Assembly: GCF_001904745.1 (NCBI RefSeq)
Contig: NZ_MRCD01000005.1
Coordinates: 62,001 to 126,000, forward strand
Length of the DNA stretch: 64,000 nt
Reading direction: 5' to 3'
From: Calothrix sp. HK-06
GTDB taxonomy: Bacteria > Cyanobacteriota > Cyanobacteriia > Cyanobacteriales > Nostocaceae
The first letter of the stretch is position 1. Each line of letters opens with the position of its first letter. Shown here piece after piece: positions 1 through 64,000 of the stretch. Both the position numbers and the translations under genes were made by a program. The notes beneath the pieces were generated by a model. The model worked only from the letters and a program-made list of their open reading frames with translations. It was not told the DNA's origin and made no database searches.

Positions 1-504
1 AGTGATTGCAATTTGAAAGTAGGGACTATTTACGATTTCGGGTTCAAATGGTATTGTTTGAAAGTGATGTTTTTCAAATATAGCGGGAATTTGATTTTTG
101 ACTGATGCTTTGACAAAATTCCAATCGCGTGTGTGAACTAGCTTGGTGTGGCGCCGTAAATGAAATGGCAAGTAGTATTTTGTGGCAATGGTGCTAGAGT
201 TTGTGAGTCTGCCTGGTACTCTGTCTATAGGATATGGCATTGGTAACGGCGCCACTCTTAGATGTTCTTGGGTGTTATAAAAATCTACAAATTTCGCGTC
301 TGGTTTTTGCAGTTTAAAAGGATTAAATAACCAAGATAGATTTAATGGGTTAGCGTTTTTATCGTGGTAAGCTAACACCGAAGAGTAACCCAAGTTTGCA
401 GCAGCATTCGCACAAAGCACATCGTGTATTTCGTGTGCTGTATCAGGTTTGAGCGAAAGTTGTCCTGTATAAAACAGGTATTTGTTTTGATTGTTAGAAG
501 ACAT
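1..504 (-). CDS. glycosyltransferase, N-terminal 168 residues (cut by window edge)
   Basis: The minus strand is open from an ATG at 504 to the window edge with no stop, so the 3' part lies outside. The product begins MSSNNQNKYLFYTGQLSLKP and continues with a segment on a catalogue of 'ANAAANLGYSSVLAY', which resembles the N-terminal Rossmann half of cyanobacterial GT4-type glycosyltransferases. The start is 8 bp after the stop of the ABC exporter upstream, so the two are probably translated from one message. Assignment to a glycosyltransferase rests on this N-terminal resemblance and on three glycosyltransferase/exporter neighbours in the same direction; the donor-binding C-terminal domain is not visible. 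Confidence 0.6.
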   Translation of the reverse strand, partial: MSSNNQNKYLFYTGQLSLKPDTAHEIHDVLCANAAANLGYSSVLAYHDKNANPLNLSWLFNPFKLQKPDAKFVDFYNTQEHLRVAPLPMPYPIDRVPGRLTNSSTIATKYYLPFHLRRHTKLVHTRDWNFVKASVKNQIPAIFEKHHFQTIPFEPEIVNSPYFQIAIT

Positions 505-511
505 CTTGCTA

Positions 512-2863
512 TTACAATCCTATTTTTATTTTAGAATTTCCATTTTGTTGATATTCGAGCTTATTACTGGAATCAGTAGAATTTAAAGATTTTGATTTCA
601 AAAAATCTTCTAATTCTTGAATTGTATCCAGTAAATGAATTGCCGCATAATAAATATTTTTAACAATTTCATTCTGCTCAGATGTTTGAACTTGACCATC
701 TACAATTAGCGGCAAAGAATGTAACATAAAATTTAAATGAGTACGTAACTTCTTAACAAGACGGTCAAGGTCATCTCGATATACTTTATACGTATCATTT
801 ACTGATGTAATAAAGGTGGTTTGCAGTTTGACAATATCCTCAAATACTTCAATAATATTCTCGATGCGCGCTGTTGATTTACGTATTTCTTCGATAAGTT
901 CTTCCCGCTCCTGCGAGTTTTCTGCTTCGTCGAGTAATAATTGCAAAAAGCCAATCGTTGGATTTAGTCGTGTCCGTAATTCGTGGGGTATACGAACTAA
1001 ATTCTGATTGTGAGTTAGTACTTCTGTATTTTGCCGATTCGTTAATTTGGCTTCTGTAAATTGTTTTTCAGAATCTTCGGCGCCAAATTGCATCGTGTAA
1101 AGTCGTCTATAATAGCCACCTTTCTGTAACAGTGAGTTGTGAGTTCCGACTTCTACAACTTTTCCTTGGTCTAAAACCGCTATTTGGTCAGCAGCTTGAA
1201 CTGTAGATAAACGGTGGGCAATAACTAAAGTTGTTCTGTCTTTACTCAAGTCATCGATAGCTGCTTGCACTACTCGTTCAGATACAGTATCAAGCGCACT
1301 AGTCGCTTCATCGAGAATTAAAATCTCTGGGTTTTGTAATAATGCACGTGCTATAGCTAATCTTTGTCGTTGTCCCCCCGATAGCATTACACCTCTATCA
1401 CCTATTAGCGTATCAAAACCTTGTGATAGCTTCGTGACAAACTCATAAGCATTCGCGCGTTTGGTAGCAGCTATTATTTCTTCTTCGGTTGCGTCAGGTT
1501 TTCCGTATGCAATGTTATATCGTACTGTGTCGTTAAATAAAAATGTATCTTGACTAACAATACCCATTGCACGACGTAATGACTGAATATCAAATTCTTT
1601 CAAATCTACGCCATCTAGTAAAATACTACCAGAAATTACATCATAAAAACGGGGTAACAAGTCTGCCATTGTTGATTTTCCGGCGCCTGAACTACCAACT
1701 AAAGCTAAAGTGGTACCCTTCGGCAAAAACAAATCGACTTCTTTTAATACTAATTTTTCGCTACCTGGGTAAGCAAAAGAAATATTATTGAAATGAATTC
1801 CTTTTTCAAGCGCGTTGTAACTTTTTGCCCCCCGACTCATAAACGGCTTATTGTCACGTCTTAAAAAATCGTTAGCAATAGATACGCTTGTTGAAGCGTT
1901 CGCGAAGCTACTGCGAATTGCGTTTAGCTGAGATATAAAAGGCAGTAAACGCAGAAGTACTAATAAATATGTAAAGATTACAGTCGAAAGTGAGGAAATT
2001 TGAGATGCAAATAAATACTTACTAAGCAGTATGATCATTACCAAGGCTGTAATTCCCATTACCTCACTAACGGGTGTAATTGCCTCAGAATTTGCTTGCG
2101 ATTTAAAATCAGCTTGTTCGCGGTTGCGAATTAATTTGACAATTTTTGTGTATTCACGGTCTTCATTAGCTGTTGCCCTGACTAAACGCATTCCGTTCAT
2201 GACTTCCAAAACGTTTATCGAATATGCTCTTGACATATCCGAAAGCAATTTACCATAATCTTTCGACCGAGCAATTGCATATTGGTTGACTAATGTTACA
2301 AGTGATAGTAAAAATGTTGCTGCTATTGTTAACTGCCACGAGATAGAGAGCAATACAGCAATAAATACTAAAATTGTAATAATTAAAATTGAGACCCGAA
2401 TCACAGTATTGACAGAACTCGCGGCTTTTCCCAACTCTCCACTCAAGCTATTAATTGCATCACCAACTTTGGTTTTAATGAAGTAATCTAAATCGACTTC
2501 TAACAAGTTTTTTAAACCTGCTTCCCGCATGTCAGTAGTCAATGTACGTGCAAGGGAACTTGATGTTAAAGTGCTTGCATAGCTGGCAAGATTTTTTAAT
2601 ATAATAGTTAATATAATTGCTATTGCCATGACCAAAGTACGATAATCTTCTGGTACTCGGTCGAAAGGTCGCATTACAATTTTTAAAATATCAGGTGCGT
2701 TATTTAGTTCAACATCTAGCCCAATAATTTTTAAAACAACTGGTACAATTAGTGTAGTACCAACTCCATTAAATAAGGCGCCAGAAAATCCTAGTAAGAA
2801 TGTCAGAAGCATCCAACCAGGATAAGGTTTAGCAAATCTAATTAAAAGTTTAAAAGTGGACAT
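512..2863 (-). CDS. ABC exporter (membrane domain + ATPase) with a HisKA-like C-terminal extension
   Basis: This is a half-size ABC exporter of the MsbA/HepA type: six membrane helices in residues 1-310, then an ATPase with Walker A GSSGAGKST near residue 392, signature LSGGQRQR and Walker B ILILDEATSALD. Such exporters work as dimers in the inner membrane and move lipids, glycans or peptides. The ATPase ends near residue 600, where a normal family member stops. About 180 further residues follow. They contain HELRTRLNPTIGFLQLL near residue 626, which matches the H-box of histidine kinases (HELRTPLNAIIGFSQLL), followed by helical, charged sequence. No kinase ATP-binding domain is present. The gene lies between glycosyltransferase genes in one direction, so a glycan or glycolipid substrate is likely but inferred. 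Confidence 0.88.
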   Translation of the reverse strand: MSTFKLLIRFAKPYPGWMLLTFLLGFSGALFNGVGTTLIVPVVLKIIGLDVELNNAPDILKIVMRPFDRVPEDYRTLVMAIAIILTIILKNLASYASTLTSSSLARTLTTDMREAGLKNLLEVDLDYFIKTKVGDAINSLSGELGKAASSVNTVIRVSILIITILVFIAVLLSISWQLTIAATFLLSLVTLVNQYAIARSKDYGKLLSDMSRAYSINVLEVMNGMRLVRATANEDREYTKIVKLIRNREQADFKSQANSEAITPVSEVMGITALVMIILLSKYLFASQISSLSTVIFTYLLVLLRLLPFISQLNAIRSSFANASTSVSIANDFLRRDNKPFMSRGAKSYNALEKGIHFNNISFAYPGSEKLVLKEVDLFLPKGTTLALVGSSGAGKSTMADLLPRFYDVISGSILLDGVDLKEFDIQSLRRAMGIVSQDTFLFNDTVRYNIAYGKPDATEEEIIAATKRANAYEFVTKLSQGFDTLIGDRGVMLSGGQRQRLAIARALLQNPEILILDEATSALDTVSERVVQAAIDDLSKDRTTLVIAHRLSTVQAADQIAVLDQGKVVEVGTHNSLLQKGGYYRRLYTMQFGAEDSEKQFTEAKLTNRQNTEVLTHNQNLVRIPHELRTRLNPTIGFLQLLLDEAENSQEREELIEEIRKSTARIENIIEVFEDIVKLQTTFITSVNDTYKVYRDDLDRLVKKLRTHLNFMLHSLPLIVDGQVQTSEQNEIVKNIYYAAIHLLDTIQELEDFLKSKSLNSTDSSNKLEYQQNGNSKIKIGL

Positions 2864-2884
2864 AGTTAATAGTTAATAGTTATA

Positions 2885-2950
2885 AAAACCGGGTTTCTTT
2901 ATCGAGATTGTCATGAAAATAGAGATCTTGCATAGAAACCGGGTTTCTTA
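2885..2950. repeat. paired AAACCGGGTTTCTT repeat (family B)
   Basis: Two copies of the near-palindromic core AAACCGGGTTTCTT flank about 36 bp between the GT4 and ABC genes. The second copy overlaps the TAA stop of the GT4 gene at 2948-2950. The same core recurs near 34382, 37427, 43438, 51113 and 54363. Confidence 0.85.
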
Positions 2951-4114
2951 TAGTTTATTGATAACACTTGCGAGCGTTGCAGCCATAGTGGAAGTACTAT
3001 ATTTTTCAATACAGCGGGTTCTAGCTTTACGTCCTTTAACGGTTGCAGTTTCAAAATCATTGAATATGACTTCGATTTGTGCTGCTATTTGTTCGGGTGC
3101 TGATGGTTCAACTAAATAACCTGTGTCAGCTAATATCTCAGGTATATCACCTACACGGGTAGAAATCACAGGTTTACCCATTGCCATTCCGTCAGTTAAC
3201 TTCAGAGGAAACTGCGCGCGTGCGACTACGGTATCGCGCTGTGGTACAACAACAACATGCGCTGCTGCCACAATTTCTGGCATCGCTTCTACTGGCGCCT
3301 TTGGTAACTTAATAATCCAACGTCCCCATTTACTAATTAATTGCTCATCGTAATTATCATACGGACTGCCACCAACAATTACTAACCGCAAATCATCACG
3401 GTTAAGCTTATCGAGTGCTATCAATACGTCTTCAACACCTTTATGCGGACGCGGGGCGCCAGGAAACATCAAAATGCGATAATCAGAAAGTCCATACTTA
3501 GAGCGACTTGCTTCAGGGTCGTATTTATCTGGGTTAAACATATCAGTATCTTTACCATTTGGTACATAAACACCCCCAAATCTATCCTGAAGAAACTCTG
3601 TATCAATAGTTATGCCATCTGCCCACTTAACCAAACTTTCCATCCAATTAATGTAAACTGGATGGTCAGGAAATCTAAGGGCGCCGTTCGATTTGAGAAT
3701 ATCACGGGCAAATTGTTTGATTCCTGGTTGATACTTCCAATCAAAACCACCATGCCAACTTAATTCCCAGTCATCCATATCAACCAACACCGGACGATGA
3801 CGACTCAATTTATCAAGCAATGCCACACCAAAGCTAGTTGGTTTTGGCTTGACTGCGTAAATTACATCACCCGATAGCTTTTGCCGTAATTGTCGCACTG
3901 GCCCAAAAAACTGTGGATAATTACTACCAGCTATAGAAATCACTGGAATTCCATCAGGGGGTATGGCATATAAATCTTTGCCGAAATTAAAACCGACAAC
4001 TTCGACGTCATAATTAAGTTGCTTAAGGACTTGAGCTAGTAAATAAGCTCGAACCGTACCTCCTCCAGAGAGGTCGCTAACAACTAATGAAAATTTTAAT
4101 TGATTATTTGCCAT
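2948..4114 (-). CDS. glycosyltransferase family 4 (GT-B fold)
   Basis: The 388-residue product has the two-lobed plan of GT4 enzymes. The N-terminal lobe opens with KFSLVVSDLSGGGTVRAYLL, a glycine-rich loop typical of acceptor domains. The C-terminal lobe carries ILMFPGAPRPHKGVEDVL near residue 215, the usual start of the donor lobe, and DGMAMGKPVISTRVGDIPE near residue 310, the position of the E-x7-E donor-binding motif (here the first Glu is Asp). It would transfer a sugar from a nucleotide sugar to a growing glycan or lipid on the cytoplasmic side. It sits 16 bp after the GT2 gene and 85 bp before the ABC exporter. The specific sugar cannot be told. Confidence 0.88.
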   Translation of the reverse strand: MANNQLKFSLVVSDLSGGGTVRAYLLAQVLKQLNYDVEVVGFNFGKDLYAIPPDGIPVISIAGSNYPQFFGPVRQLRQKLSGDVIYAVKPKPTSFGVALLDKLSRHRPVLVDMDDWELSWHGGFDWKYQPGIKQFARDILKSNGALRFPDHPVYINWMESLVKWADGITIDTEFLQDRFGGVYVPNGKDTDMFNPDKYDPEASRSKYGLSDYRILMFPGAPRPHKGVEDVLIALDKLNRDDLRLVIVGGSPYDNYDEQLISKWGRWIIKLPKAPVEAMPEIVAAAHVVVVPQRDTVVARAQFPLKLTDGMAMGKPVISTRVGDIPEILADTGYLVEPSAPEQIAAQIEVIFNDFETATVKGRKARTRCIEKYSTSTMAATLASVINKL

Positions 4115-4130
4115 TGCTCATTGTTGTGTC

Positions 4131-5165
4131 TTACTGCGATTTATCTGGACTGAGTTTACCAAGGCGCCAAATTTTAGTAGAAATAAAGTTAATTATTTTT
4201 TGGCTTCGTGACCCACGTAAGTTTTCATATAATAAAGACTGCGGTAAAACCATTCGTAGTAAGTAAGCTATAAACAAACTCAACCTACTATTTACTTTAA
4301 ACTTTCCATTAAACAGTTGAACCGGATAATTTACAATTTTGCCTAATTTAAAAAAGTTATTTTTATCTTTTTCAATCAAAGTCTGTTCCAGTAAAAATTT
4401 TATTCCCGGCTGGGAATAATTTCTTAAATCATCACTTTTACTGGCTTCAATTTCGTATAGCAAAACATAGTAGTTTTTCATGTACTCCCAATTGTTGGTT
4501 CTATTTGTTTCGTGTTTAGTGTAAAAAGTACCAACAATCGGTGTATATATATAATCTATGCCTAATGCTAATAAACTGAGTGCAAAATCTCTATCTTGTA
4601 AAGCCTTAAGACGGCTATCAAAAGATGCAGCTTGCAAAACTTCTTTTTTAATCAACATGCACTGCTGCAACACAGGGAACGGCGACTTAGCAAGAAAATC
4701 AGGTAAAAGTAAACGCTGTTTTAACTCTTCACGATTTAACGAACCGATAATATTTTGTTCACGACGAATAATATTTTGGTTGCTGTCAAGGAATACGCGC
4801 TCATAGTCACAGTAAAGTACAACGTTTTGGTTTTCTAACTTTTCTAAACAACTCAACTGAAACCGCGTTTTATCTTCATGAATCCAATCATCTGGGTCTA
4901 AACACTGAATCCATTCACCCGAAGCTTTTTCAATACCCAAATTACGCGCAGTAGATACACCACCATTTTCTTTATAAAAATATTGCACTCGCTTGTCAGT
5001 AGCGATTAAGCGTTCTGCTACTTCGCGAGTATTATCTGTTGACCCATCATCAACTAAAATACATTCTAAATTAGTGTAAGTTTGTGCTAAAACACTTTTA
5101 ACACATTTTTCTAGATAGCTAGCTCGGTTGTAGCATGGTAAAATAATTGAAACTAAAGGAGTCAT
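4131..5165 (-). CDS. glycosyltransferase family 2 (GT-A fold)
   Basis: The 344-residue product starts with VSIILPCYNRASYLEKCVKS, the classic GT2 opening, followed by the nucleotide-binding LVDDGSTD at about residues 37-44 and LDPDDW near residue 111, which is the metal-binding DXD region. The C-terminal third is not membrane-spanning, so this is a soluble or peripheral transferase and not a processive synthase. It is the first gene of the minus-strand run toward the ABC exporter and so probably opens the operon. About 280 bp of AT-rich sequence upstream (5166-5444) has no other gene and should hold the promoter; no clear motif was identified there. Confidence 0.9.
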   Translation of the reverse strand: MTPLVSIILPCYNRASYLEKCVKSVLAQTYTNLECILVDDGSTDNTREVAERLIATDKRVQYFYKENGGVSTARNLGIEKASGEWIQCLDPDDWIHEDKTRFQLSCLEKLENQNVVLYCDYERVFLDSNQNIIRREQNIIGSLNREELKQRLLLPDFLAKSPFPVLQQCMLIKKEVLQAASFDSRLKALQDRDFALSLLALGIDYIYTPIVGTFYTKHETNRTNNWEYMKNYYVLLYEIEASKSDDLRNYSQPGIKFLLEQTLIEKDKNNFFKLGKIVNYPVQLFNGKFKVNSRLSLFIAYLLRMVLPQSLLYENLRGSRSQKIINFISTKIWRLGKLSPDKSQ

Positions 5166-5444
5166 AGCTAAACCAATCCTAAATCATTAATATTACAGTG
5201 GGACTCAGAATTAAATTCATACAAATACATAAAAAATGTAACCTATTTTACCCTGAACCCCTACCGAGAATGTACCGATAAATTCATCAATATCAGTACT
5301 ACTAGCTCCTGTAACAAGTAATATCACAGATTGTAACCAGTATATTTGATTTATTTTTTGCTATCTAGTGACTCACCGTCTAGTTCTTCCCTACAGTGTA
5401 TACAGCAAGGCGCCGAACCGTCACGCGCTGGCTTATAATTGTGA

Positions 5445-5672
5445 TTACCAGCCAATAAGTTTTAATTGACCTGTCTGAAGATAGTCAAATATACGATAGA
5501 TTTGGCGACGTTCAGCGTCACTAACATCGCTATTATTTAAAATAATTTCTGTGAGTAAGCTGTGGTCATTACGACTATATACTCTAGAAAAAATAATTTT
5601 ATCTACAATTTTTTTTACAGCCACTTCTGATTGATAATCAATTGATTTCATCATTGAAACTTTATGTAGCAT
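5445..5672 (-). CDS. small conserved-type protein, function unknown
   Basis: A 75-residue product beginning MLHKVSMMKSIDYQSEVAVK is preceded by AGGAGAGCT directly before the ATG, a good ribosome site, and has no overlap with other genes. It is mixed helical and polar, with no signal peptide or membrane segment, and reads like small cyanobacterial proteins of unknown function. A second in-frame Met pair at residues 7-8 is possible but lacks as good a ribosome site. No function is proposed. Confidence 0.6.
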   Translation of the reverse strand: MLHKVSMMKSIDYQSEVAVKKIVDKIIFSRVYSRNDHSLLTEIILNNSDVSDAERRQIYRIFDYLQTGQLKLIGW

Positions 5673-6110
5673 AGCTCTCCTGATTATTAATTATTAAAAA
5701 AATAAGCAAAATTTGCCCCCCTTATAGTTAAACAGCGTGCGTATAAAAATTTCTTAAATTTAAGTCAAGGCGGTAAACAAATTTTATTGATTATAAAGTT
5801 TATGCCTTAGAATGCCTTTGTGGTATCTTTACAACATAAACCAATAAAATCAATTTTGCTTTATCTTTACATCATCACCCAGAGAATTTTTACTGATATC
5901 TAGATTTTTTTAACAAACCATATAGTCAAAAATACGTGTAAATACTATTGCTTTTACCAAAAGATTTTAAATTATAGGTGTTCCCGGTGAAGTCAATATA
6001 GATTTTCAGGAAACTCTTACAATTAATAAGCACCAGCAAAGAACTATAAAAAGATACACAGCAAGACTCACTCAGCACGTCCATACCCATAACAAACAGG
6101 AGTAAACGAG
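5673..6110. other. intergenic region between two divergent genes
   Basis: About 440 bp of AT-rich sequence between the small minus-strand gene and gloB. It should contain both promoters. A minus-strand reading frame here has low-complexity codon content and overlaps gloB, so it was not accepted. The only clear site is AGGAGT 9 bases before the gloB ATG. Confidence 0.5.
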
Positions 6111-6887
6111 ATGCAGATAATTCGTATACCAGTACTTTCTGACAATTACATTTTCTTGCTTTGGGATAGCGCACGTAAAATAGCCGCAGTAGTTGACCCT
6201 GCCGTAGCAAAACCAGTTTTAAATAAACTTAATGAATTAGAAGGCGCCGAGTTGGTAGCTATTTTCAATACACATCACCATAGCGACCATGTAGGAGGAA
6301 ACCGTGAATTAATGACCCACTACCCCAACCTAACAGTCTACGGTGGAGAGTCAGACTCAGGACGCATCCCGGGACAAAAAGTTTTTCTTCGTGAAGGAGA
6401 CTCTGTAGAATTTGGCGACCGAACTGGCGCCGTGTTTTTTGTTCCTGGACATACACGCGCTCACATCGCTTATTATTTCCCACCTGTCACCCCAGACGAA
6501 GCAGGCGAACTATTCTGTGGTGATACACTATTTGCAGGTGGATGCGGGCGCCTATTTGAAGGAACACCAGCGCAAATGGTAGATTCTCTCAGCAAAATAC
6601 GCACACTACCCGATAATACTCGTGTGTGGTGTGCCCATGAATACACTCTCAAAAATCTTCAGTTTGCCCTTAGTGTCGATAGTAACAACCAAGATTTACA
6701 ACAGAGATATACAAAAGTACAAGCTTCCCGCAATCAAGGAGAAGCCACAGTACCTTCACTATTAGGGATCGAAAAACTTACTAACCCATTTTTAAGATGG
6801 GATATACCCGCATTACAAACAGCCGTAAAAACTAGCGAGCCAGTACAAGCATTCGCACGCCTACGCGGAATGAAAGACACATTTTGA
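6111..6887 (+). CDS. gloB: hydroxyacylglutathione hydrolase (glyoxalase II)
   Basis: The 258-residue protein is a metallo-beta-lactamase-fold thioesterase that hydrolyses S-lactoylglutathione to lactate and glutathione, the second step of methylglyoxal detoxification. The metal-binding motif [10 protein letters not shown] is at residues 54-63, with further ligands in VPGHTRAH (about 112-119), the Asp of [17 protein letters not shown], and the His of CAHEYT. Length and motif order match the GloB family. AGGAGT lies upstream of the ATG. It is a single gene, convergent with the following glycosyltransferase. Confidence 0.95.
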
Positions 6888-6957
6888 TCCCCCCTCCTTG
6901 ATAAGGGGGGAACAAGAACCTCTTAGCCCCCCGAATTCCGGGGGGTTGGGGGGATAA
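6886..6957. repeat. C/G-run inverted repeat, probable two-way terminator
   Basis: Runs of CCCCCC and GGGGGG form hairpins (ATCCCCCC...GGGGGGA; CCCCCCGAATTCCGGGGGG at about 6927-6945) between two convergent genes. The repeat also codes the last residues of the minus-strand GT8 protein. Related runs occur at 16404-16425 and 35441-35478. Confidence 0.75.
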
Positions 6958-7894
6958 AAGACTTAAATTGCTTCTTAAACGACCCATACATATTCTGAAA
7001 CACACCCATTTGTTTCTGCCGTCGCTTTTTACCAGCTTGTTCTACAGACCAGTTCGACCATATCGAGTTATCGAGATATTCGTAAAATAATTTCTTTTGT
7101 GGATGATTACAATTATCGTTCCAAGGTTTCTCGCGCGTTGAGTAGTGGATGATATATGGATGGTTGAGCAGGTTATTATATTCTTGTTCACTGAATGGAC
7201 TTTCTTGCCATGAACCAAACCGGAATAAATAAGGCATTTGATTCCAACGCGCGTCAAGTTCTCCCCATTTTCCTGCTAAAACTGCGTTTAACCCGTCTTG
7301 GTCGTGCCAACGCACCTGCTGTTTATAATCGTTGAGATATTTAATTACTGCCAAACTTGTGTTGTTTTGGCGCCATTTTTTTAAATTAAATACCAGTACA
7401 CCCGAATTGAAATATTTATAATCAGCAGGAATACCGAGTTCTTGATAGTTTACTAAACCGCGCGGAGAAGAAACTAGCGGGGCGCCCATATCTTGCACTG
7501 CTAATAAATAATTGTCGCCCACATCTTGGTTCCAGAGTGCCTCAATGTCACTGCGAACTATTACATCACTATCTATATATATTGCTTTTTCGGTTTCGGT
7601 AGGTAAAAACTCTGGAATTAAAAGTCGATAATAAGCAGCAATTGTTATTGTTGATGAAATTTGCATGTTCTTGAACTGCGATGTGGGCGCTTTTATCCAA
7701 GTAACTTTGACTTGCTCTGATTTAAGATTTTCAATTATCCGCTTTTTGTTGGCGCCCAAGACACCACCATCAATTATATACAACGACAAATTATGCGGAT
7801 TTTGCATACTCGCAACAACCGAACGAGTGGTTGCTGCCAAAGGCATAGAGTAGTTATCATCCGCAGCGCATACTAAAACTATAGAGTTATCCAT
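6923..7894 (-). CDS. glycosyltransferase family 8
   Basis: The 323-residue product starts with SIVLVCAADDNYSMPLAATT, the GT8 opening, and has YIDSDVIV near residue 104, which contains the DXD metal and nucleotide-sugar site. Later motifs FNSGVLVFNLKKWR and DQDGLNAVLAGKW are GT8 hallmarks (LgtC/glycogenin-like), as is HY near the HPYIIHYS segment. It retains configuration when transferring a sugar such as galactose or glucose; the acceptor is unknown. The last nine residues, PPTPRNSGG, are coded by a C/G-run repeat that also supplies the stop, so the natural C-terminus seems to have been rewritten by the repeat. Confidence 0.9.
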   Translation of the reverse strand: MDNSIVLVCAADDNYSMPLAATTRSVVASMQNPHNLSLYIIDGGVLGANKKRIIENLKSEQVKVTWIKAPTSQFKNMQISSTITIAAYYRLLIPEFLPTETEKAIYIDSDVIVRSDIEALWNQDVGDNYLLAVQDMGAPLVSSPRGLVNYQELGIPADYKYFNSGVLVFNLKKWRQNNTSLAVIKYLNDYKQQVRWHDQDGLNAVLAGKWGELDARWNQMPYLFRFGSWQESPFSEQEYNNLLNHPYIIHYSTREKPWNDNCNHPQKKLFYEYLDNSIWSNWSVEQAGKKRRQKQMGVFQNMYGSFKKQFKSFIPPTPRNSGG

Positions 7895-8119
7895 AGATGC
7901 TTAATTTTTAAATTTCAACTGTGGCTATACTTAATTTGTTTTAAAATGTGATACTAAGTTAAATCTTAACAATTTATGCGGCTGCGAAAAAGTTTTTAAG
8001 TTTTTGTATCTACCTTTACACTATGGGTTAACATACAATTGCTTCCCAGGTAAGAGGAAAAGCTACAATTACTAAGGTAAATTACTAATGAATGAGTTGA
8101 TTAGCATTTGCGCCAAAAA

Positions 8120-8141
8120 CTACCGTAGATAGATACGGTAG
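8120..8141. promoter_or_regulatory. inverted repeat CTACCGTA-6-TACGGTAG, operator-like
   Basis: CTACCGTA and TACGGTAG are perfect inverted copies separated by GATAGA. The symmetry and spacing fit a dimeric-regulator site or a small hairpin. It lies between the divergent GT8 and PAS-CRP genes. Function is inferred only. Confidence 0.3.
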
Positions 8142-8311
8142 ATAGAGGTGTATATGATAATATAGTACTTGTACAAACTATTGGAACGCTAACTTGACTT
8201 ATTTTCTGGTGCTTTCTTAATTATTCTTGGATACCAATTATACTTCGGGGCGGTACGGAGTTAGTTTTATACTCAAGTTTACTTATAATTTTTGAATCAC
8301 GCATTGCATTA

Positions 8312-8431
8312 ATGGGCGTAAATCATGAAATCGATTTTGTCATTCGTTCGAGTCGTTATGAGGCGCCTGCCGACTTGTTACAACTTCTAACTCAACCCCA
8401 AAGACATAAAAAATACATTATTCAGGTTTAG
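8312..8431 (+). other. short coding-like frame (39 codons), possible remnant
   Basis: From ATG at 8312 the frame reads MGVNHEIDFVIRSSRYEAPA and ends KKYIIQV before TAG. It extends open upstream to a stop at 8195 without another ATG. The residue composition looks protein-like, but there is no ribosome site. It may be the end of a decayed gene. Confidence 0.25.
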
Positions 8432-8518
8432 AAAATTTTAATCAAACCAGAATTTAAAAATTAACGAAAATAATTAATAATTAAATAAAGATAATAAACG
8501 CTAATAATCAAAATTCAA

Positions 8519-9715
8519 ATGGGAAATAAAATGGACATTAATCAAACAGATATTGAAAAATTTGTTTATCGTACAGAGAGAATGTACCAGCGCTGGTCAG
8601 ACTTGCTGCATGGAAGCGTTAGTTTGTCACCAAGCAAAGCAGAAGTTTTACCCCAAGCTTTAATGGAACTTGGTTCTGCGTCACAAACGTTACAATTAGC
8701 AACTGAGGAGTTATGCCAGCAAAATCAAGAACTGGCAGAAGCACGCAATTTACTTGAGACAGAACGTCAACGCTACAAAGACCTTTTTGATTTTGCACCC
8801 GATGCTTATCTAGTGACGGACTTAGATGGCAAAATTCAAGAAGCTAATCGTGCTTGTTCTGAAGTTTTTGGCATTTCCCAGCAAAATTTAATGGGTAAAC
8901 TAATTGTTAACTTTGTTACATTAGACGACCGTCATAAACTACGGTGTCAAATTGCCAAATTATCCAAAATGGAAAAAATAGGTGAAATTATTATATTTTG
9001 TAAGAAAAGAGAGGGTGGATTTTTTAATGCAGCTTTAACTGCTACCAGTATTTGTAACCGTCAAGGTATAGTAACAGGGTTGCGCTGGCTAATACGTGAT
9101 ATCACAGAACAGCAAAGAATAGAATCAACACAACAGAGTTGTGATTTAGATTTATCAAAGAATCGTCCTTTACATAAGTACTGTAAACGCGAAGTAGTAC
9201 CTCTTGGAAATGATATAATTTGGTATGTTAAGAGTGGTATAGTTAAACTAAGTTCGCTTTGTGAAGCTGGAACAGAAATATTACTAGGGTTAGTACGTGA
9301 AGGAATGGTTTTTGGCGCCAGTCTCACAACTCAACAAATCTATCAAGTGACAGCGATTTCGGATGTTGAACTAGTGCCAGTTATGCAAACAGAAATAACT
9401 GCTTCCCCAGCTTTGAGCCATGTGATTTTACCCAAAATTAAACAGAGATTGCAACAAACCGAATACTTTTTAGCAATTGCAGGTCGATTGAAAGTAGAAG
9501 ACCGATTTTGGAATCTATTACAATATTTGAAGCAAGATTTTGGACAACATACTCCAATCGGAACTCGAATTAATATTCGTTTTACCCATGAGGAACTCGC
9601 TGGTGCTTGCTGTACTACTCGCGTTACAATTACCAGGCTAGTTCAATATTTCCAACAAAGGAAATTAATTAGCTTGGATAACAGGCGCCATATCATAATA
9701 CACGATGATTTATAA
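8519..9715 (+). CDS. PAS-domain / CRP-FNR family fusion regulator
   Basis: The 398-residue product has three parts. Residues about 78-205 form a PAS sensor domain (RYKDLFDFAPDAYLVTDLDG, ending LRWLIRDITEQQR). Residues about 215-320 resemble the cyclic-nucleotide-binding beta-barrel of the CRP/FNR family. The C-terminal part has a winged-helix motif, FTHEELAGACCTTRVTITRL, very close to the NtcA/CRP DNA-recognition region. It is therefore a likely DNA-binding transcription factor with an added sensory input. The ligand of the PAS domain is not visible. A second Met at residue 5 could be the start; neither has a strong ribosome site. Confidence 0.85.
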   Translation: MGNKMDINQTDIEKFVYRTERMYQRWSDLLHGSVSLSPSKAEVLPQALMELGSASQTLQLATEELCQQNQELAEARNLLETERQRYKDLFDFAPDAYLVTDLDGKIQEANRACSEVFGISQQNLMGKLIVNFVTLDDRHKLRCQIAKLSKMEKIGEIIIFCKKREGGFFNAALTATSICNRQGIVTGLRWLIRDITEQQRIESTQQSCDLDLSKNRPLHKYCKREVVPLGNDIIWYVKSGIVKLSSLCEAGTEILLGLVREGMVFGASLTTQQIYQVTAISDVELVPVMQTEITASPALSHVILPKIKQRLQQTEYFLAIAGRLKVEDRFWNLLQYLKQDFGQHTPIGTRINIRFTHEELAGACCTTRVTITRLVQYFQQRKLISLDNRRHIIIHDDL

Positions 9716-9716
9716 T

Positions 9717-9795
9717 TGTCATTCTGAGCGCAGCGAAGAATCTAAAGTTCCATTGCAGATTGTGGAAGAGATGCTTCACTGCGTTCAGCATGACA
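9717..9795. repeat. dispersed inverted repeat (TGTCATTCTGAGCG...CAGCATGACA)
   Basis: TGTCATTCTGAGCGCAGCGA at the left and GCGTTCAGCATGACA at the right form an imperfect long inverted repeat filling the gap between two convergent genes. Related sequences occur at 25786 and 57556. Confidence 0.75.
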
Positions 9796-12693
9796 TTAGG
9801 AAGGTTGTAAAATTAAATCGGTTAACTTAGCTTGCAAGTCCTGCCAGTGGACATTTTCGAGACTGGGTAAAACAATATCAGCTTCTCCTACCCTTTCAGA
9901 AGGTCCCAAACCAACAGCTATCATTCCTCCTGCTTTTGCTGCTTCAATACCTGCTGCTGCATCTTCAACTACAATACATTCTAAGGGCGCCAACCCAAGT
10001 TCTTTTGCGGCAAACAAAAATAAATCAGGTGCTGGTTTTGGTTGTTGGACACTGTAACCATCAGCTATAACATCTATATGTTTGGCTATTCCCAATTTTT
10101 CAACTACCGGACGCGCGTTTTTACTGGCAGAACCAAGGGCTATTTTAATACCCGCACTGCGTAATTCTTCGAGCAAATCTAGTGCTCCTGGTAATAAATC
10201 TTTGGGTGAAATATTTTCGATAGATTCCACGTAGTAACGGTTTTTACGCTCCATCATTTCTAAAATTTGGTCTTCAGAATAATGCTTATTACCAATAATT
10301 TTAAGCAATGATTCACGGCGAGATACTCCCCGCAGTTCTTCGTTGGCTTCGCGGTTAAATGGTAATCCTTCTTCGTCAGCGAGTCTTTGCCAACCTAAAT
10401 AATGGTATTCAGCAGTATCTGTTAATACACCATCTAAGTCAAAAATTACGCCTTTAATATTCGAGTTGGAATTATGTAGTGTTTCCATATTTGTTCCTTC
10501 TGCTTTCAAGTCAAATTCGTGCCAGTCACCGCGCCAATTAATTTTGAACTGTAAGCGTTTCCAACCTTGAGGTAAATGTGCTGTTGCAACGGGCCCATTT
10601 TCGGTGAGCTTAACACCGCCAAAACCAAAGACTACAGCTTGCCATATTCCACCCGCACTGGCGCCATGTATACCTTCATGTGCATTACCACGTACATCTT
10701 CGATATCAACCATTGCCGCTTGCATGAAGTATTGATAAGCTTCGTCAGGTTTTCCTAAGTCGGATGCTAATATCGCGTGAATCGCTGGGCCAAGTGAGGA
10801 ACCGTAGGTAATATCGGTACGAGGTGCGTAATAGTCCCAGTTTTTCTCTAATATTTCTAACGTGTAAGGAAACTCTTGTGATTCGCGCATTAAGTAAAGT
10901 AGCATCAAGACATCGGGTTGTTTTAATACCTGACGTTTATTGGCGCCTTCGATAGTCAAAATTGTTTGCATCGACTTAGTACGCGGTTCGTAATCAGCCA
11001 GATTGATATCTTCGAGTTTAAAAAATCCATCTTGCTGTTCGATGAGTTTTGTATTAGGGTCATAAGGAATTACTAAATTCGCGATAATATCTTGCCAACG
11101 TAGGCGCCGACTTAGTGTAAGCTGTAGTCTCGTTTCGAGTTCTTTAGCTTTATCAGGATATTTTTCGCGTAACCAGTCTTGAGTCGCGATAGCTTTTTCT
11201 AAATGCCACTGCACCATGCGGTTAGTAAAGGCATTATTATTTGCTAACTCGTGATACTCATCGGCGCCTATTACACCGCGAATTTCGTACTTTTCATTCT
11301 TAGTACTATATTCAACGCGACTTCCCCAAAATACTGCTGTGTCCAAAATAATTTCGGCGCCGTAATCACGCATCCAATCATCATCGCCCGAAACCAACCA
11401 ATAAGACCATACAGCGTAAACAACATCAGCGCTAATATGTATCTCACGGTCACGGCACCATATACGAATATCTTCTCCATATGGATCATTCGGTGGTAAC
11501 CAACGCGGTGTCACTTCGTCACCTGTATCCGCACTTTCCCACGAATACATTGCTCCTTTATACCCGTAGTGAACTGCTTTTCTTCGGGCGCCACCAATTG
11601 TATGGTAACGATACGATAGCAAGTTACGCGCTAATTCTGGTTGTGTGTAGATGAAAAACGGCAGGATAAATATTTCTGTATCCCAGAATACATGCCCGCG
11701 ATATCCAAACCCTGATAGAGTTTTAGCCGCAATGCTTACACGGTCATCGTTTGTAGGCGCCGCAATTAATAACTGAAACAAATTGTAGCGAACTGCAAGC
11801 GCTGCGCGAACATCTCCTTCAATCGCAATATCGCTTTTGTCCCATGCTTGCTCCCATGCCAAAGAATGTTCCTTTAACAACGTAGAGTATGGGGGTAAAT
11901 CGGCTAATTCCTGTTGTGCAGATTGCACTGGGTTTTCGACATCTCTAGATGTATAGAAAGTCACTAATTTTTCAACAGTAACAGCTTGCCCAGAAGTGCC
12001 TTGAAACGAAGTTATGACAGTGGGGTATCCAGGTGGATTTGTCACAAGAACCGATGCTTCGGCGCCTGAAACATTCATTCCCAGACCCATACCGAGAGTA
12101 ATACGCGAGTTACGAGTTCGCAGATTCAACCAGGCAGCTTTAGAAATACTCCCCTGGTCGATTAATTCCCAATGGTTAAACCCTTGGTTTTCAGGGTATC
12201 CACTGATACTAGCTTGCACTTCAACTAACCCATCAAAATCAACAGGTTTAATAAGAAGGCGCAACGCGGTTACATGCTCAGAAGCTAAACTAGCAAACCG
12301 TTCAAATTGTAAATCTACAGTTTTTCCACCAGTCGAACGCCATCGTATAAATCGACTTAAAACACCGCGTCGCAAATCAAGCTTTCGTTCATAGCTAATT
12401 ATCTCACCCCTATCCATCCGAAAGCGTTCGCCATCAATTGTGATAGATAGCGGCAACCAGTCAGGACAATTAGCAAGTTCAGTGTAAACAATTGGCACAT
12501 CATCAAACACACCGTGAAGTAAAGTTGCAGGTGTCGCGCGCGAATAACCTTCTTCAAACGTACCGCGCGTACCTAAATAACCATTACCAATTGTAAATAC
12601 AGTTTCACGGTGGTGAATTTTATCTGGGTCAAATCGAGTTTCGATTAATGACCAGTCAGTATAAATAAAATCAAGATTAGTATTTAAATCCAT
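9796..12693 (-). CDS. GH65 glycoside phosphorylase fused to beta-phosphoglucomutase
   Basis: The N-terminal ~735 residues are a GH65 enzyme of the maltose/trehalose/kojibiose phosphorylase group, with VFWDTEIFILPFF and GADEYHE (about residue 478), the latter holding the general-acid Glu. These enzymes invert and release beta-glucose 1-phosphate from an alpha-glucoside. From about residue 745 a HAD-family beta-phosphoglucomutase follows (GVIFDLDGVLTDT with the nucleophile Asp; IVVEDAAAGIEAA), which turns that product into glucose 6-phosphate. So one polypeptide can carry two consecutive steps. I chose the ATG at 12693, with AAGGAAA upstream; the frame is open to 12753 but that part is a repeat-like G/C stretch. 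It follows sucrose synthase in the same direction. Confidence 0.92.
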   Translation of the reverse strand: MDLNTNLDFIYTDWSLIETRFDPDKIHHRETVFTIGNGYLGTRGTFEEGYSRATPATLLHGVFDDVPIVYTELANCPDWLPLSITIDGERFRMDRGEIISYERKLDLRRGVLSRFIRWRSTGGKTVDLQFERFASLASEHVTALRLLIKPVDFDGLVEVQASISGYPENQGFNHWELIDQGSISKAAWLNLRTRNSRITLGMGLGMNVSGAEASVLVTNPPGYPTVITSFQGTSGQAVTVEKLVTFYTSRDVENPVQSAQQELADLPPYSTLLKEHSLAWEQAWDKSDIAIEGDVRAALAVRYNLFQLLIAAPTNDDRVSIAAKTLSGFGYRGHVFWDTEIFILPFFIYTQPELARNLLSYRYHTIGGARRKAVHYGYKGAMYSWESADTGDEVTPRWLPPNDPYGEDIRIWCRDREIHISADVVYAVWSYWLVSGDDDWMRDYGAEIILDTAVFWGSRVEYSTKNEKYEIRGVIGADEYHELANNNAFTNRMVQWHLEKAIATQDWLREKYPDKAKELETRLQLTLSRRLRWQDIIANLVIPYDPNTKLIEQQDGFFKLEDINLADYEPRTKSMQTILTIEGANKRQVLKQPDVLMLLYLMRESQEFPYTLEILEKNWDYYAPRTDITYGSSLGPAIHAILASDLGKPDEAYQYFMQAAMVDIEDVRGNAHEGIHGASAGGIWQAVVFGFGGVKLTENGPVATAHLPQGWKRLQFKINWRGDWHEFDLKAEGTNMETLHNSNSNIKGVIFDLDGVLTDTAEYHYLGWQRLADEEGLPFNREANEELRGVSRRESLLKIIGNKHYSEDQILEMMERKNRYYVESIENISPKDLLPGALDLLEELRSAGIKIALGSASKNARPVVEKLGIAKHIDVIADGYSVQQPKPAPDLFLFAAKELGLAPLECIVVEDAAAGIEAAKAGGMIAVGLGPSERVGEADIVLPSLENVHWQDLQAKLTDLILQPS

Positions 12694-12723
12694 CGGCAGT
12701 GCTTTCCTTATATATAGGGGCAA

Positions 12724-12752
12724 TGTGGGGTGCGGGTTGAAAATTCCCCACA
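12724..12752. repeat. intercistronic hairpin TGTGGGG...CCCCACA
   Basis: A 7-bp perfect stem with a 15-base loop lies between sucrose synthase and the GH65 fusion. It resembles the G/T-rich elements after the stops at 60721 and 62037. It may limit read-through or protect the upstream message; both are inference. Confidence 0.5.
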
Positions 12753-12767
12753 CCCTCTTTTTAGTCT

Positions 12768-51841: not shown

Positions 51842-53272
51842 ATGTCTTACGCTCAAACTCGGACCCAGAGCAAATCAGGGTATCAGGCAGGGGTTAAAGA
51901 TTACAGATTAACTTATTACACCCCAGACTACACACCTAAAGATACAGATATTCTTGCTGCATTCCGGATGACTCCACAACCTGGAGTTCCCCCCGAAGAA
52001 GCAGGTGCGGCAGTTGCTGCTGAGTCATCAACAGGTACTTGGACAACAGTTTGGACTGACTTGCTCACCGACCTAGACCGCTACAAAGGTCGTTGCTACG
52101 ACATCGAAGCAGTTCCTGGCGAAGACAATCAATATATTGCTTACGTTGCTTATCCTTTAGACTTGTTTGAGGAAGGTTCCGTAACAAACATGTTGACTTC
52201 TATTGTAGGTAACGTGTTTGGTTTCAAAGCATTACGCGCATTGCGTTTGGAAGACTTACGAATTCCTGTTGCTTACCTCAAGACTTTCCAAGGTCCTCCA
52301 CACGGTATTCAAGTAGAACGCGATAAGTTAAACAAGTATGGTCGTCCTTTGTTGGGCTGTACCATTAAACCAAAACTTGGTTTATCTGCTAAAAACTACG
52401 GTCGTGCGGTTTATGAGTGTCTACGTGGTGGTTTGGACTTTACCAAAGACGACGAAAACATCAACTCGCAACCTTTCCAACGTTGGAGAGACCGTTTCTT
52501 GTTCGTAGCTGATGCTATTCACAAGTCTCAAGCAGAAACCGGTGAAATTAAAGGTCACTACCTCAACGTAACCGCTCCTACTTGCGAAGAAATGATGAAG
52601 CGCGCTGAGTTTGCGAAAGAACTCAAAATGCCCATCATTATGCATGACTATTTGACCGCAGGTTTTACCGCTAACACCACTTTGGCTAAATGGTGTCGCG
52701 ATAACGGTCTATTGCTCCACATTCACCGCGCAATGCACGCGGTAATTGACCGTCAAAAGAACCACGGTATTCACTTCCGCGTTTTAGCTAAAACTCTCCG
52801 GATGTCTGGTGGTGACCACATTCACACTGGTACCGTTGTAGGTAAGCTCGAAGGTGAACGTGGTATTACAATGGGCTTCGTTGACTTATTACGTGAAAAC
52901 TACGTAGAACAAGACAAGTCTCGTGGTATTTACTTTACACAAGACTGGGCTTCTATGCCTGGAGTAATGGCTGTTGCTTCTGGTGGTATCCACGTATGGC
53001 ACATGCCTGCGCTCGTTGAAATCTTCGGCGATGACTCCGTACTTCAGTTCGGTGGTGGTACTCTAGGACACCCTTGGGGTAACGCACCTGGCGCCACAGC
53101 AAACCGTGTTGCACTTGAAGCTTGTATTCAAGCACGTAACGAAGGTCGCAACTTGGCTCGCGAAGGTAACGACGTTATTCGTGAAGCTTGTAAGTGGTCT
53201 CCTGAATTGGCTGCTGCTTGCGAACTTTGGAAAGAAATCAAGTTCGAGTTCGAGGCAATGGATACCGTTTAA
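51842..53272 (+). CDS. rbcL: RuBisCO large subunit (form IB)
   Basis: The 476-residue protein fixes CO2 onto ribulose bisphosphate in carboxysomes. Catalytic motifs are intact: [40 protein letters not shown] (with the carbamylated Lys), HIHRAMHAV and [19 protein letters not shown]. The C-terminus carries EIKFEFE, the segment bound by RbcX. I start at the ATG at 51842, preceded by GGAAGGGA; an upstream in-frame GTG at 51821 is less likely. It has only one GGCGCC in 1.4 kb, much lower than other genes. Confidence 0.98.
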
Positions 53273-55199: not shown

Positions 55200-55259
55200 A
55201 TTCTGATTAACATCTACCATTTTTAATAAAGATACAGCAAAAAGTGAAAACTGACTATG

Positions 55260-55388: not shown

Positions 55389-55423
55389 TCAAGGGGCACC
55401 TCTTAATATAATAGTTGACTTCC

Positions 55424-60778: not shown

Positions 60779-60858
60779 TTTCTCTCTTGGGCAGGCTAAA
60801 TGATAAGTTAATAAATAGTTTGACATTCATAGCATTACACAGCAAAGAAGGAATCAAG

Positions 60859-62037: not shown

Positions 62038-62096
62038 GGAGGAGTGTGGGAGTGTAGGAGTGTATTTCTCACTCTCTCACTCTCTCACCCTGCCTT
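62038..62096. repeat. G/T-rich repeat after sat (family H)
   Basis: GGAGGAGTGTGGGAGTGTAG at the left and CTCTCACTCTCTCACCCTGCC at the right pair loosely. It begins right after the stop, like the element at 60722. Confidence 0.6.
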
Positions 62097-62212
62097 TACC
62101 CCTTCCCCGTATACAGTATTTATTTTTAAAAAACAGTATTTGCTGAAGCTTTACAATCAGGATTTTAGCCCTTTAATCTGTTATCTGATATAAAATGGGG
62201 CTGAGGTATCGA

Positions 62213-64000
62213 ATGATGAAACGGCGAACTTTTTTGCAGCGTATTGGCTCAATACTCGCAGTATTGGAAATAACTGAAGCTTTCGGGCTAAGTTTGGGAA
62301 ATAATTACTATCAAGCTTTGGCTCAAACAAGTTCGCGTAAGTTGGCTTTGCTTGTAGGCATTAATAACTACTCTCAGTTTCCCACTTTGAATGGCTGCTT
62401 GACAGATGTCGAATTACAAAAGCAACTCTTAATTCATCGCTTTGGTTTTCAACTGTCTGATATTATATGTTTAACTAATGAGCAAGCTAGTAAGAGTTTA
62501 ATTCAGAAAGCTTTTAATGATTTGAACACTCAAGTTAAACCTGGTGATGTAGTTTATTTTCACTTCAGTGGTTACTCTAGTTATGTTAAGTCACAAAAAG
62601 CACTAGTATTGTTTGACGATAGTCTTGAAAAGAAAGGTGAAGCTAATTACTTATTAGAAGAAACTCTGCAACTAATTTTACACGCACTCAAAACAGAAAA
62701 TGTAATTGCTGTACTTGATACTGGTTATAATATTAATCACAGCAAAAATTGTGGTTTAAAAGTTCGCGCGGTTCAAATACCTGATAATATTAATATCGCT
62801 GACGATGAATTAGAGTATCAAAAACAACTTAAAAATCGAGCAATTACCACACCTCCTGCTTTAATATTATCTGCAACCTCAAACCCTAATCAGTCAGCTA
62901 GGGAATTACAAATGTCAGGATTTAGTACTGGTTTATTTACTTATGCTTTGACGCAATACCTTTGGGAAAATAGCCTAACAACTACAGTGCAATTCGGTTT
63001 GCAAAAAGTTAATTCAACCGTACAGCAACTAGGCAGCAATCAACAGTCAACTTTAATAAACAGTAAAAAAATTCAGCAGTTAGGGACATTTGCGAGTAAT
63101 TTCGGTATAGGTGCCGATATTAATATTCAATCTCAAATTCAAGCTCAACATTCAGGTGGCGCCGAAGGTGCTATTACTACCGTAGAAGAAGATGGTAAAA
63201 CAGTACAACTTTGGTTGGGAGGTGTACCAGCGCATGTACTAGAATATATCGGTGTCAACTCTAGGTTTGCTGTTATCTCAAATTCAGCTTCATCAAATTT
63301 GGTATTGCGTGTACGCTCTGGGTTAACGGCAAAAGCTTCACTTCGTACTGACTCTAGTACAGAAACTCCAATTACTTTACAAGTTGGACAATTAATTCAA
63401 GAAGTTGTGCGCGTTATTCCAAAAAACATCCATCTTAATATAGGACTAGATAAATTAGAACGTATCGAACGTGTTGACGCAACTAGTGCTTTTGCAACAT
63501 TCAATCATATTTCGAGTACAGTCGCAGAACAACCCACAGATTATATATTTGGTAAATTGCTAGATAAACCTCAAGAAACTGGTGCAATGGTATCATCTAG
63601 TCGTTATGGTTTATTTAGCCTTAGTGGAGAATTAATTGCCAACACATCAGGTGAAGTTGGAGAAGCGGTAAAAGTTGCAGCGCAAAGACTGGCGCCAAAA
63701 TTACAAACTTTACTTGCTGCAAAATTATGGCGCATCACTGAAAACGAAGCTTCATCGCTACTAAATGTCAAAGTTACACTCGAAACAGTAGTAGCATCTC
63801 ATGATGGTGCCAGTTCGCAACCAATAATGATAAGGGAAACTCTTAGAAGTCAAGCGTTTAGCACTAAAGTGCTTACAACTATAGAATTAAACAAACTTTC
63901 TATAGGGAATCGTATTCAATATCAAGTTGAAAATAAATCGAATCAAATTCTTTATTTAATGCTGCTAGGGTTAGATAGTAGTAAAAATGCCTTTGCATTA
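62213..64000 (+). CDS. caspase-fold protein without catalytic residues (pseudo-orthocaspase), cut by window edge
   Basis: The frame is open from ATG 62213 to the window end (596 residues visible). The start MMKRRTFLQRIGSILAVLEI has a twin-arginine signal. Residues 42-260 are the caspase p20-type fold (RKLALLVGINNYSQFPTLNG), but the catalytic His block reads VVYFHFSGYSS (Tyr121 for His) and the Cys block VIAVLDTGYN (Gly171 for Cys). Both catalytic residues are absent. Later sequence (LNKLSIGNRIQYQVENKSNQ) resembles a DUF4384-type domain seen in cyanobacterial orthocaspase partners. It probably binds without cutting. The C-terminus is outside the window. Confidence 0.85.
   Translation, partial: MMKRRTFLQRIGSILAVLEITEAFGLSLGNNYYQALAQTSSRKLALLVGINNYSQFPTLNGCLTDVELQKQLLIHRFGFQLSDIICLTNEQASKSLIQKAFNDLNTQVKPGDVVYFHFSGYSSYVKSQKALVLFDDSLEKKGEANYLLEETLQLILHALKTENVIAVLDTGYNINHSKNCGLKVRAVQIPDNINIADDELEYQKQLKNRAITTPPALILSATSNPNQSARELQMSGFSTGLFTYALTQYLWENSLTTTVQFGLQKVNSTVQQLGSNQQSTLINSKKIQQLGTFASNFGIGADINIQSQIQAQHSGGAEGAITTVEEDGKTVQLWLGGVPAHVLEYIGVNSRFAVISNSASSNLVLRVRSGLTAKASLRTDSSTETPITLQVGQLIQEVVRVIPKNIHLNIGLDKLERIERVDATSAFATFNHISSTVAEQPTDYIFGKLLDKPQETGAMVSSSRYGLFSLSGELIANTSGEVGEAVKVAAQRLAPKLQTLLAAKLWRITENEASSLLNVKVTLETVVASHDGASSQPIMIRETLRSQAFSTKVLTTIELNKLSIGNRIQYQVENKSNQILYLMLLGLDSSKNAFAL

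Follow-up and report, generated by a model that had tools for sequence, protein, structure and literature searches.

The purpose of HIP1 (GCGATCGC), the best-known highly iterated palindrome (HIP), has been open for decades, and the stretch of Calothrix sp. HK-06 DNA analysed here (64,000 bases, C189:62001-126000 of genome G000, which comprises 9.99 Mb in 243 contigs; hereafter the window) raises the question of whether a second palindrome, GGCGCC, stands in for it. An initial annotation of the window had claimed, by eye, about 109 GGCGCC sites at about 39% GC, with no HIP1 and no CGATCG. A recount returned exactly 109 sites, dispersed over positions 1-64000, together with zero copies of both HIP1 and CGATCG, 18 GATC and a GC content of 39.4%. 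A word of 100% G+C in such DNA is expected 3.7 times from base composition and 6.3 times from dinucleotide frequencies. Indeed, 100 dinucleotide-preserving shuffles of the window contained 6.5 ± 2.95 sites, with a maximum of 20, and none reached 109. Seven of the eight sites quoted as examples were exact or one base off (248 and 1079 were exact; those given as 149, 6244, 20946, 39350 and 57058 lie at 150, 6243, 20947, 39351 and 57057), but there is no GGCGCC at the eighth, 11341, whose neighbors are at 11263 and 11356.

The sites had been described as mostly genic, and 87 of the 109 lie inside the 40 listed open reading frames (ORFs; called mechanically as the longest non-overlapping frames with an ATG start), 60 of these 87 encoding Gly-Ala as GGC GCC. 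Elsewhere in the window ORFs the codon preferences are as claimed, with glycine encoded by GGT (513), GGA (281), GGC (124) and GGG (120), and alanine by GCA (460), GCT (379), GCG (188) and GCC (125). The rbcL ORF (51821-53272) likewise carries a single site, at 53090-53095. In the whole genome we counted 15,449 GGCGCC compared to 6 for the reversed word, and merely 88 HIP1, so that HIP1 is not frequent outside the window either. The Markov model was run on 1.54 Mb pooled from the seven genomes of the genus; here GGCGCC was 42-fold over the order-2 expectation, with sites masked. The window count, the genome-wide excess and the scarcity of HIP1 thus support the proposal of the initial annotation that GGCGCC is a replacement HIP. 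The concept of replacement HIPs was already published, as stated there, and the same word was known too (Elhai 2015, PMC4390886).

GGCGCC marks a clade and is genus-wide, which goes beyond the published case of a single relative. All seven genomes of the genus, among them G001, G003, G004 and G005 (taken as Dulcicalothrix desertica PCC 7102, Calothrix NIES-4105, Calothrix C42_A2020_038 and Calothrix FI2-JRJ7, respectively), contain 7,475-20,380 copies, compared to 0-1,053 in the 210 remaining genomes of the 217 examined in the family. With rounded genome sizes this corresponds to 1,150-1,711 per million bases, within the HIP range of 1,000-2,000. HIP1 is low in the same seven genomes (31-163 copies), as is the case where an alternate HIP occurs, versus 535-8,803 in 35 chosen other family genomes. 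In a one-protein tree (985 residues, 26 rows), based on a minus-strand window ORF with nine sites (9796-12753, 985 aa), which we take to be glycoside-hydrolase-65-like and which also served for orthologue comparison, the seven GGCGCC taxa form one clade with support of 100/99. Its sister is Calothrix elsteri plus CSU_2_0, whose sampled loci contain no GGCGCC and have 18 HIP1 in 23 kb (L064) and 3 in 4.5 kb (L063); in the C. elsteri locus, L064, HIP1 is present at 16 of its 21 allowed positions, compared to 0 of 48 for GGCGCC. The simplest reading is that HIP1 was swapped for GGCGCC once, on the genus stem. Scytonematopsis contorta (L065), the relative that follows in the tree beyond the Calothrix rows, has 2 HIP1, 2 GATC and no GGCGCC in 23 kb, a loss of HIP1 without GGCGCC replacement in this one locus.

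Among 388 genomes of the class, of which G000 is the sole genus member, no second clear GGCGCC case was confirmed. G435 and 14 genomes of family f16 exceed one GGCGCC per kb in a hand tally and were considered as an independent origin. However, the reversed word is common in them too and is outnumbered by GGCGCC by a factor of only 1.7-3.9, suggesting that these genomes are GC-rich; for G435, the only one of the 15 for which GC was taken, one 20-kb stretch has a GC of 0.557, with 43 GGCGCC, 15 CCGCGG and no HIP1. G435 itself holds 9,489 GGCGCC in 3.8 Mb versus about 300 in three listed genus mates, and is possibly an independent case. Lower-density enrichment was seen in G561 (3,074 GGCGCC versus 165 reversed) and G448 (1,169 versus 25).

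We measured occupancy, the share of coding positions permitting the word by synonymous codons at which it is present, in stretches of the seven genus genomes and in 73 outgroup loci (L066-L138), all of which surround the same gene; this pool excludes L063-L065, the last two of which are described separately above. Kinship among the genomes and recurring orthologous stretches mean that the permutation ranges and P values given below overstate independence. GGCGCC occupancy was 0.445-0.617 per genus genome compared to 10 of 2,931 positions in the outgroup loci, and HIP1 showed the reverse, with 0-3.5% in the genus and 1,117 of 1,733 in the outgroup. The three reading phases were filled alike (1485/2743, 549/1093 and 705/1223). 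Specifically, 1,560 of 2,857 Gly-Ala pairs were GGCGCC, whereas codon usage elsewhere predicts 38. Outside ORFs of at least 150 codons, the genus stretches contain 0.74-1.65 GGCGCC per kb versus two sites in 370 kb of outgroup loci, and seven stretches on non-main contigs (94 kb to 1.56 Mb) of G002, G003 and G006 contain 1.17-3.50 per kb. An occupancy of 44.5-61.7%, in all phases, with sites also outside ORFs and on smaller contigs, indicates that site density is limited largely by what the protein permits.

The sites are also conserved beyond the average hexamer. Among alignments to the window, sites were kept at 49/54, 70/82, 86/97 and 78/88 in the nearer genomes G001, G002, G005 and G006, at 61/82 in G003 and 21/33 in G004, and at 0/12 in each of two outgroups. 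Retention was 0.74 versus a hexamer average of 0.47 in G003 and 0.66 versus 0.31 in G004, which ranks GGCGCC third of 720 and first of 94 hexamers, respectively; its rank was 78th of 888 in G005, 18th of 765 in G006 and 19th of 677 in G002, and G001 was unranked. When conserved Gly-Ala pairs were compared to those of G006, GGCGCC outlasted the alternative codon pairs in each of the six comparisons (45/52 versus 9/20 in G003 and 57/70 versus 20/30 in G000, for instance). Eight window sites illustrate this in orthologue alignments, each kept in all six other genus genomes and in neither outgroup: 10660-10665 (AGCACC in both outgroups), 11103-11108 (AACGCC, ACCTCC), 11587-11592 (CGCACC, CGCTCC), 11756-11761 (GGTGCA, GGACCA), 12061-12066 (GGCATC, CGCTCC), 13910-13915 (GACGAC in both), 14312-14317 (GTCTTC, GTCGTC) and 14900-14905 (AACGCC, AGCGCA). 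The last three lie in a minus-strand ORF of 802 aa (12768-15176), presumably sucrose-synthase-like.

Turnover was examined in an alignment anchored on 165 kb of G006, of which 20-89 kb align depending on the genome. Among 136 polarised sites, 60 were fixed in the ingroup and also present in the outgroup, 33 showed loss, 4 a clear gain, 16 were ambiguous, 14 were fixed in the ingroup only and 9 were found in the outgroup only. The 39 loss states included 19 GGCACC/GGTGCC and 5 AGCGCC/GGCGCT (P = 0.007 for 19 versus 5, taken as independent). Parsimony at the scale of the window, which overlaps the 136-site set and is not independent of it, gave 39 fixed sites, 23 losses and 3 clear gains among 100, with GGCACC in 14 of 26 loss states. 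Within the window, GGCACC at 13098-13103 and GGTGCC at 23966-23971 are decayed sites that read GGCGCC in the six other genus genomes, and the GGCGCC at 9314-9319 is GGTGCC in G001 and G002; the window-only site at 40777-40782 differs by several bases from ACCATC in three relatives and GCCACC in G003. Among nine classes of one-off words compared to the outgroup pool, only GGCACC/GGTGCC was in clear excess (3.0-3.8 across three Markov orders), the rest lying at 0.40-1.18. Similarly, at Gly-Ala pairs other than GGCGCC, GGTGCC reached 2.62 times codon expectation, with GGCGCT at 0.97 and GGCGCA at 0.53, and three pairs more than one step away were also above expectation (GGGGCG, GGAGCA and GGGGCA at 1.43-1.86). 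Deamination of 5-methylcytosine (5mC) at the inner C would be expected to leave such an excess of GGTGCC/GGCACC. The data do not support Vsr-like short-patch repair as the maker of GGCGCC, since it would be expected to act on GGTGCC, which is in excess, although no search for Vsr itself was made.

GGCGCC avoids close neighbors: only 53 raw gaps below 30 bp were observed versus 148 expected by chance. As a control, the occupied positions of each gene were permuted among those allowed positions that share their phase. At 6-30 bp from another site, occupancy was 76/300 = 0.253 compared to 0.413 (0.364-0.463) after permutation, and at 30-60 bp it was 0.432 compared to 0.488 (0.447-0.528). Farther apart, the observed-to-permuted ratio was 1.01 between 60 and 250 bp and 1.07-1.10 between 250 and 1000 bp (1.07 and 1.10 lying just beyond the permutation ranges), and gaps beyond 60 bp were near random, with observed/expected of 0.98-1.16 up to 400 bp. 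None of the control words AAGCTT, GGTGCA and CGCGCG fell outside its permutation range below 60 bp. Raw gaps had hinted that HIP1 shares the avoidance (8 versus 26.9 expected at 8-30 bp), but permutation within 60 bp disagreed, with occupancies of 16/35 and 20/30 and ratios of 0.92 and 1.08 that, on these small counts, are inside the permutation range; HIP1 was slightly low at 60-120 bp (0.639 versus 0.658-0.731).

The initial annotation had placed the matching methyltransferase outside the window, and no cytosine-5 (C5) methyltransferase match (PF00145, E <= 0.001) was found on contig C189, other methyltransferase families not being searched. A candidate does exist elsewhere in the genome, with a predicted target, GRCGYC, that is wider than GGCGCC. 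The seven genus genomes contain 89 PF00145 matches, of which the 83 in fetched stretches were clustered; the six left out were all short or broken frames. One cluster, cluster 0, has members in 7/7 genus genomes and includes the neighbors of PF09519 in 20/20 fetched outgroup loci. We take PF09519 to be RE_HindVP, a restriction enzyme of GRCGYC specificity. The presumed target-recognition stretch of the genus proteins is close to that of these restriction-linked relatives, and the genus enzyme is therefore predicted, from sequence likeness, to be a GRCGYC-type C5 methyltransferase. Six genus genomes have one cluster-0 gene in common, which in G001 lies at C4:441733-442668; its products (P0001 and relatives) fall into one clade, share 81-100% identity and contain no internal stop. 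G001 and G004 each contain a single member of the family. In G000, an intact paralogue (83%) of this core enzyme is on C60, where two adjacent GRCGYC-type genes lie at 8058-10039, one intact (330-aa frame) and one partial. A profile search found PF09519 in 43 of the 217 family genomes and in 0/7 of the genus, which accordingly lacks the cognate PF09519 partner of a type II GRCGYC restriction-modification system, and among eight scanned neighbors of the G001 enzyme gene Pfam revealed no restriction enzyme, two having no match at all. A universal 370-aa C5 methyltransferase (cluster 2, P0002) was rejected as the GGCGCC enzyme, as it is found in 168/217 family genomes; it is probably the RCCGGY enzyme DmtD, judging from Elhai 2015 (PMC4390886). 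G003 has a second GRCGYC-type methyltransferase on a contig of 366 kb, in a stretch with 3.5 GGCGCC per kb, and next to it lies an array of nine repeats resembling clustered regularly interspaced short palindromic repeats (L175:7490-8148).

Viral DNA offers a further comparison. A prophage in G002 (L306 and L168, G002:C7:2430000-2467000; listed in IMG/VR as UViG_2507262048_000001) surrounds one divergent C5 methyltransferase and encodes tail fibre J, a tape measure protein, an endolysin, a sigma factor, a Rha regulator, a helicase and a primase. It contains 160 GGCGCC in 37 kb, more than 4 per kb and the densest of the stretches compared, and no GATC. Its occupancy was 128/161 (79.5%) compared to 212/401 (53%) in 165 kb of host G002 (P = 2e-9). 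Five cyanophage records were sampled in part, with HIP1 occupancies of 29/40 (N1), 18/34 (A1), 15/27 (2AV2), 13/25 (PaV-LD) and 0/14 (MaMV-DC), four of the five thus having HIP1 at 52-72% of allowed positions; the corresponding GGCGCC values were 0/74, 0/60, 0/90, 0/70 and 3/126. Four of the five phages thus have the common cyanobacterial HIP1, and the prophage has the GGCGCC of its host; literature searches, which covered few subscription papers, found no published report of this. The presence of the word in all seven genus genomes and its greater density in an integrated virus suggest that it has a cellular job.

Taken together, we think it somewhat more likely than not that GGCGCC is the functional substitute for HIP1 in this genus: a selected, methylated and dispersed mark. 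A genus-wide GRCGYC-type C5 methyltransferase without a restriction partner would methylate the inner cytosine (GG-5mC-GCC), and the methylated palindrome would mark DNA for a transaction that every replicon undergoes, most likely repair or recombination and possibly strand discrimination. Selection would then keep sites wherever the protein sequence allows, on the chromosome, the smaller contigs and the prophage alike, after a single swap on the genus stem. What the data establish is the abundance of the word and its restriction to the clade, its occupancy and surplus conservation, the GGTGCC decay signature, an enzyme family with no recognisable restriction partner and the high occupancy of one prophage; from these we infer the specificity of the enzyme, the methylation itself and the role of selection over repair bias. 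A wider version, possible but in our view doubtful, is that HIPs are self marks acting in cis that benefit any DNA replicating in a cyanobacterium, the genus having switched once and its phages having followed, much as most sampled phages of other cyanobacteria have HIP1; if so, a HIP would be a selected site shaped by host-phage co-adaptation and not a by-product of repair.

Several observations weigh against a selected, methylated mark. The core enzyme gene of G000 is split by two contig ends, with about 370 bp of its homologue uncovered and the terminal 49 bases at one of these ends unmatched, possibly through an insertion. Sixteen family genomes outside the genus have an enzyme relative (three of them fragments or broken) and no PF09519, yet contain only 2-277 GGCGCC by hand tally (in most genomes ten first-look candidates were scored); the enzyme alone is therefore not sufficient for the palindrome. 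Of the predicted GRCGYC targets only GGCGCC is abundant, GACGTC and GACGCC being at 0.09 and 0.38 of expectation. Inner C>T changes (12/182) are no faster than those at third-position Cs elsewhere (140/1759 at other CpG, 246/3894 at CpH), and exceed only those at the word's own outer C (5/181). The enrichment of phage DNA, seen in a single prophage, could reflect a host repair bias acting on it, and the Microcystis phage MaMV-DC is without HIP1, although Elhai 2015 (PMC4390886) lists a Microcystis genome with HIP1 at 312 per million bases.

The alternatives fare differently against the same data. That most coding sites encode Gly-Ala is what an artefact of composition or codon use would produce, but the surplus of GGCGCC over the Gly-Ala codon prediction, the similar filling of the other two phases and the sites outside ORFs already refute it. 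A restriction-modification relic, in which sites are tolerated since they are methylated, draws on the constant pairing of the enzyme family with PF09519 in the fetched outgroup loci and is very improbable: the 43 genomes that do possess PF09519 have 0-166 GGCGCC, with at most 27 in 38 of them (hand tally), PF09519 is missing from the genus, and tolerance predicts a count at expectation, so that the 42-fold excess rules out the relic as a full explanation. A binding site for a nucleoid or chromosome-domain protein, with methylation incidental, would agree with the occurrence of sites on smaller contigs as well as inside genes and outside ORFs, and with the avoidance of neighbors below 30 bp beyond protein constraint, as a bulky bound protein might need; Xu, Lawrence and Durand reportedly described in 2018 selection for HIP1 and proposed chromosome-protein binding from its periodicity. 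Nevertheless, this would require one protein to have exchanged GCGATCGC for GGCGCC as its target along a single branch, and spacing beyond 60 bp is near random, which makes this reading quite unlikely.

The repair by-product model of Elhai deserves the most attention among these rivals, although we hold it to be somewhat improbable. It posits a mismatch repair dependent on G-5mC that keeps mutations creating G-5mC beside a resident methyltransferase target, such that GGCGCC accumulates without function, and it has been proposed in print for this very word (Elhai 2015, PMC4390886). A GRCGYC-type enzyme in every genus genome fits the model, and so does the lower use of near sites with slightly greater use of isolated ones, as in a saturating process. 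However, saturation over about 1 kb is weak, the observed-to-permuted ratio being 1.01 for 60-250 bp and reaching 1.10 for 500-1000 bp, and turnover is low and dominated by loss. The word has lasted across the genus, contrary to the claim in PMC4390886 that HIP1 alone persists, and the single family member in G001 and in G004 indicates that a second enzyme copy, thought there to be possibly critical, is not needed for upkeep. Genus-wide persistence and the high prophage occupancy likewise weigh against the view, suggested in print, that replacement HIPs are without function.

Other words are also unusual in these genomes. CGCGCG, like GCGCGC, is enriched in the genus, with 3,257-8,759 CGCGCG per genome in 7/7 versus at most 552 in 209 of the 210 other family genomes, the exception being G084 outside the genus (4,254, perhaps contamination). 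It stands at about fivefold expectation in the genus pool versus 0.29 in the outgroup pool, with 30 copies in the window, and the prophage has 4 (0.11 per kb) versus 0.32 per kb in its host genome. Neither CCGCGG (155 expected) nor GTCGAC (234 expected, both strands) occurs in the 1.54-Mb genus pool, which suggests that restriction sites are strongly avoided; both words are scarce in the outgroup pool as well (0.22 and 0.08).

The closest known system is GGCGCC itself, which Elhai 2015 (PMC4390886) describes as an alternate HIP in Calothrix PCC 7103, together with two GRCGYC enzymes, and in a 19-kb fragment of Calothrix D253. Word, loss of HIP1 and CGATCG, density and type of methyltransferase are the same or similar there, but the published case, termed sporadic, comprises one genome and one fragment, whereas here the word is in 7/7 genomes (PCC 7103 may be among them), two with a single enzyme copy. 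Under the repair-bias model in that text, replacement HIPs need no function, do not persist and require a methylated inner C; our data agree with the last of these and weigh against the first two. Low-HIP1 genomes elsewhere have other replacement HIPs, namely GCSGC (Cyanothece PCC 7822), RCCGGY (Oscillatoria PCC 10802) and GGGATCCC (Synechococcus OS types), according to the same source. We found no later paper on GGCGCC in Calothrix, or as a cyanobacterial palindrome, in the literature searched. Chi sites and DNA uptake sequences, too, are short and over-represented genome-wide; they are non-palindromic, with known readers, whereas GGCGCC is palindromic. Compared to HIP1, GGCGCC is likewise a GC-rich palindrome, phage-borne and of similar occupancy (1117/1733 in the outgroup loci for HIP1), but it differs in sequence, in its putative enzyme and in avoiding other sites within 60 bp. 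A genus that traded HIP1 wholesale, and that includes named strains open to study (Dulcicalothrix desertica PCC 7102 and Calothrix NIES-4105), is a natural experiment that separates sequence from function and points to the methyltransferase as a determinant. What is new here, beyond a word known from PCC 7103 and D253, is the genus-wide switch, the occupancy and orthologue conservation of the sites, the signature of their decay, their short-range avoidance and their occupancy in a prophage.

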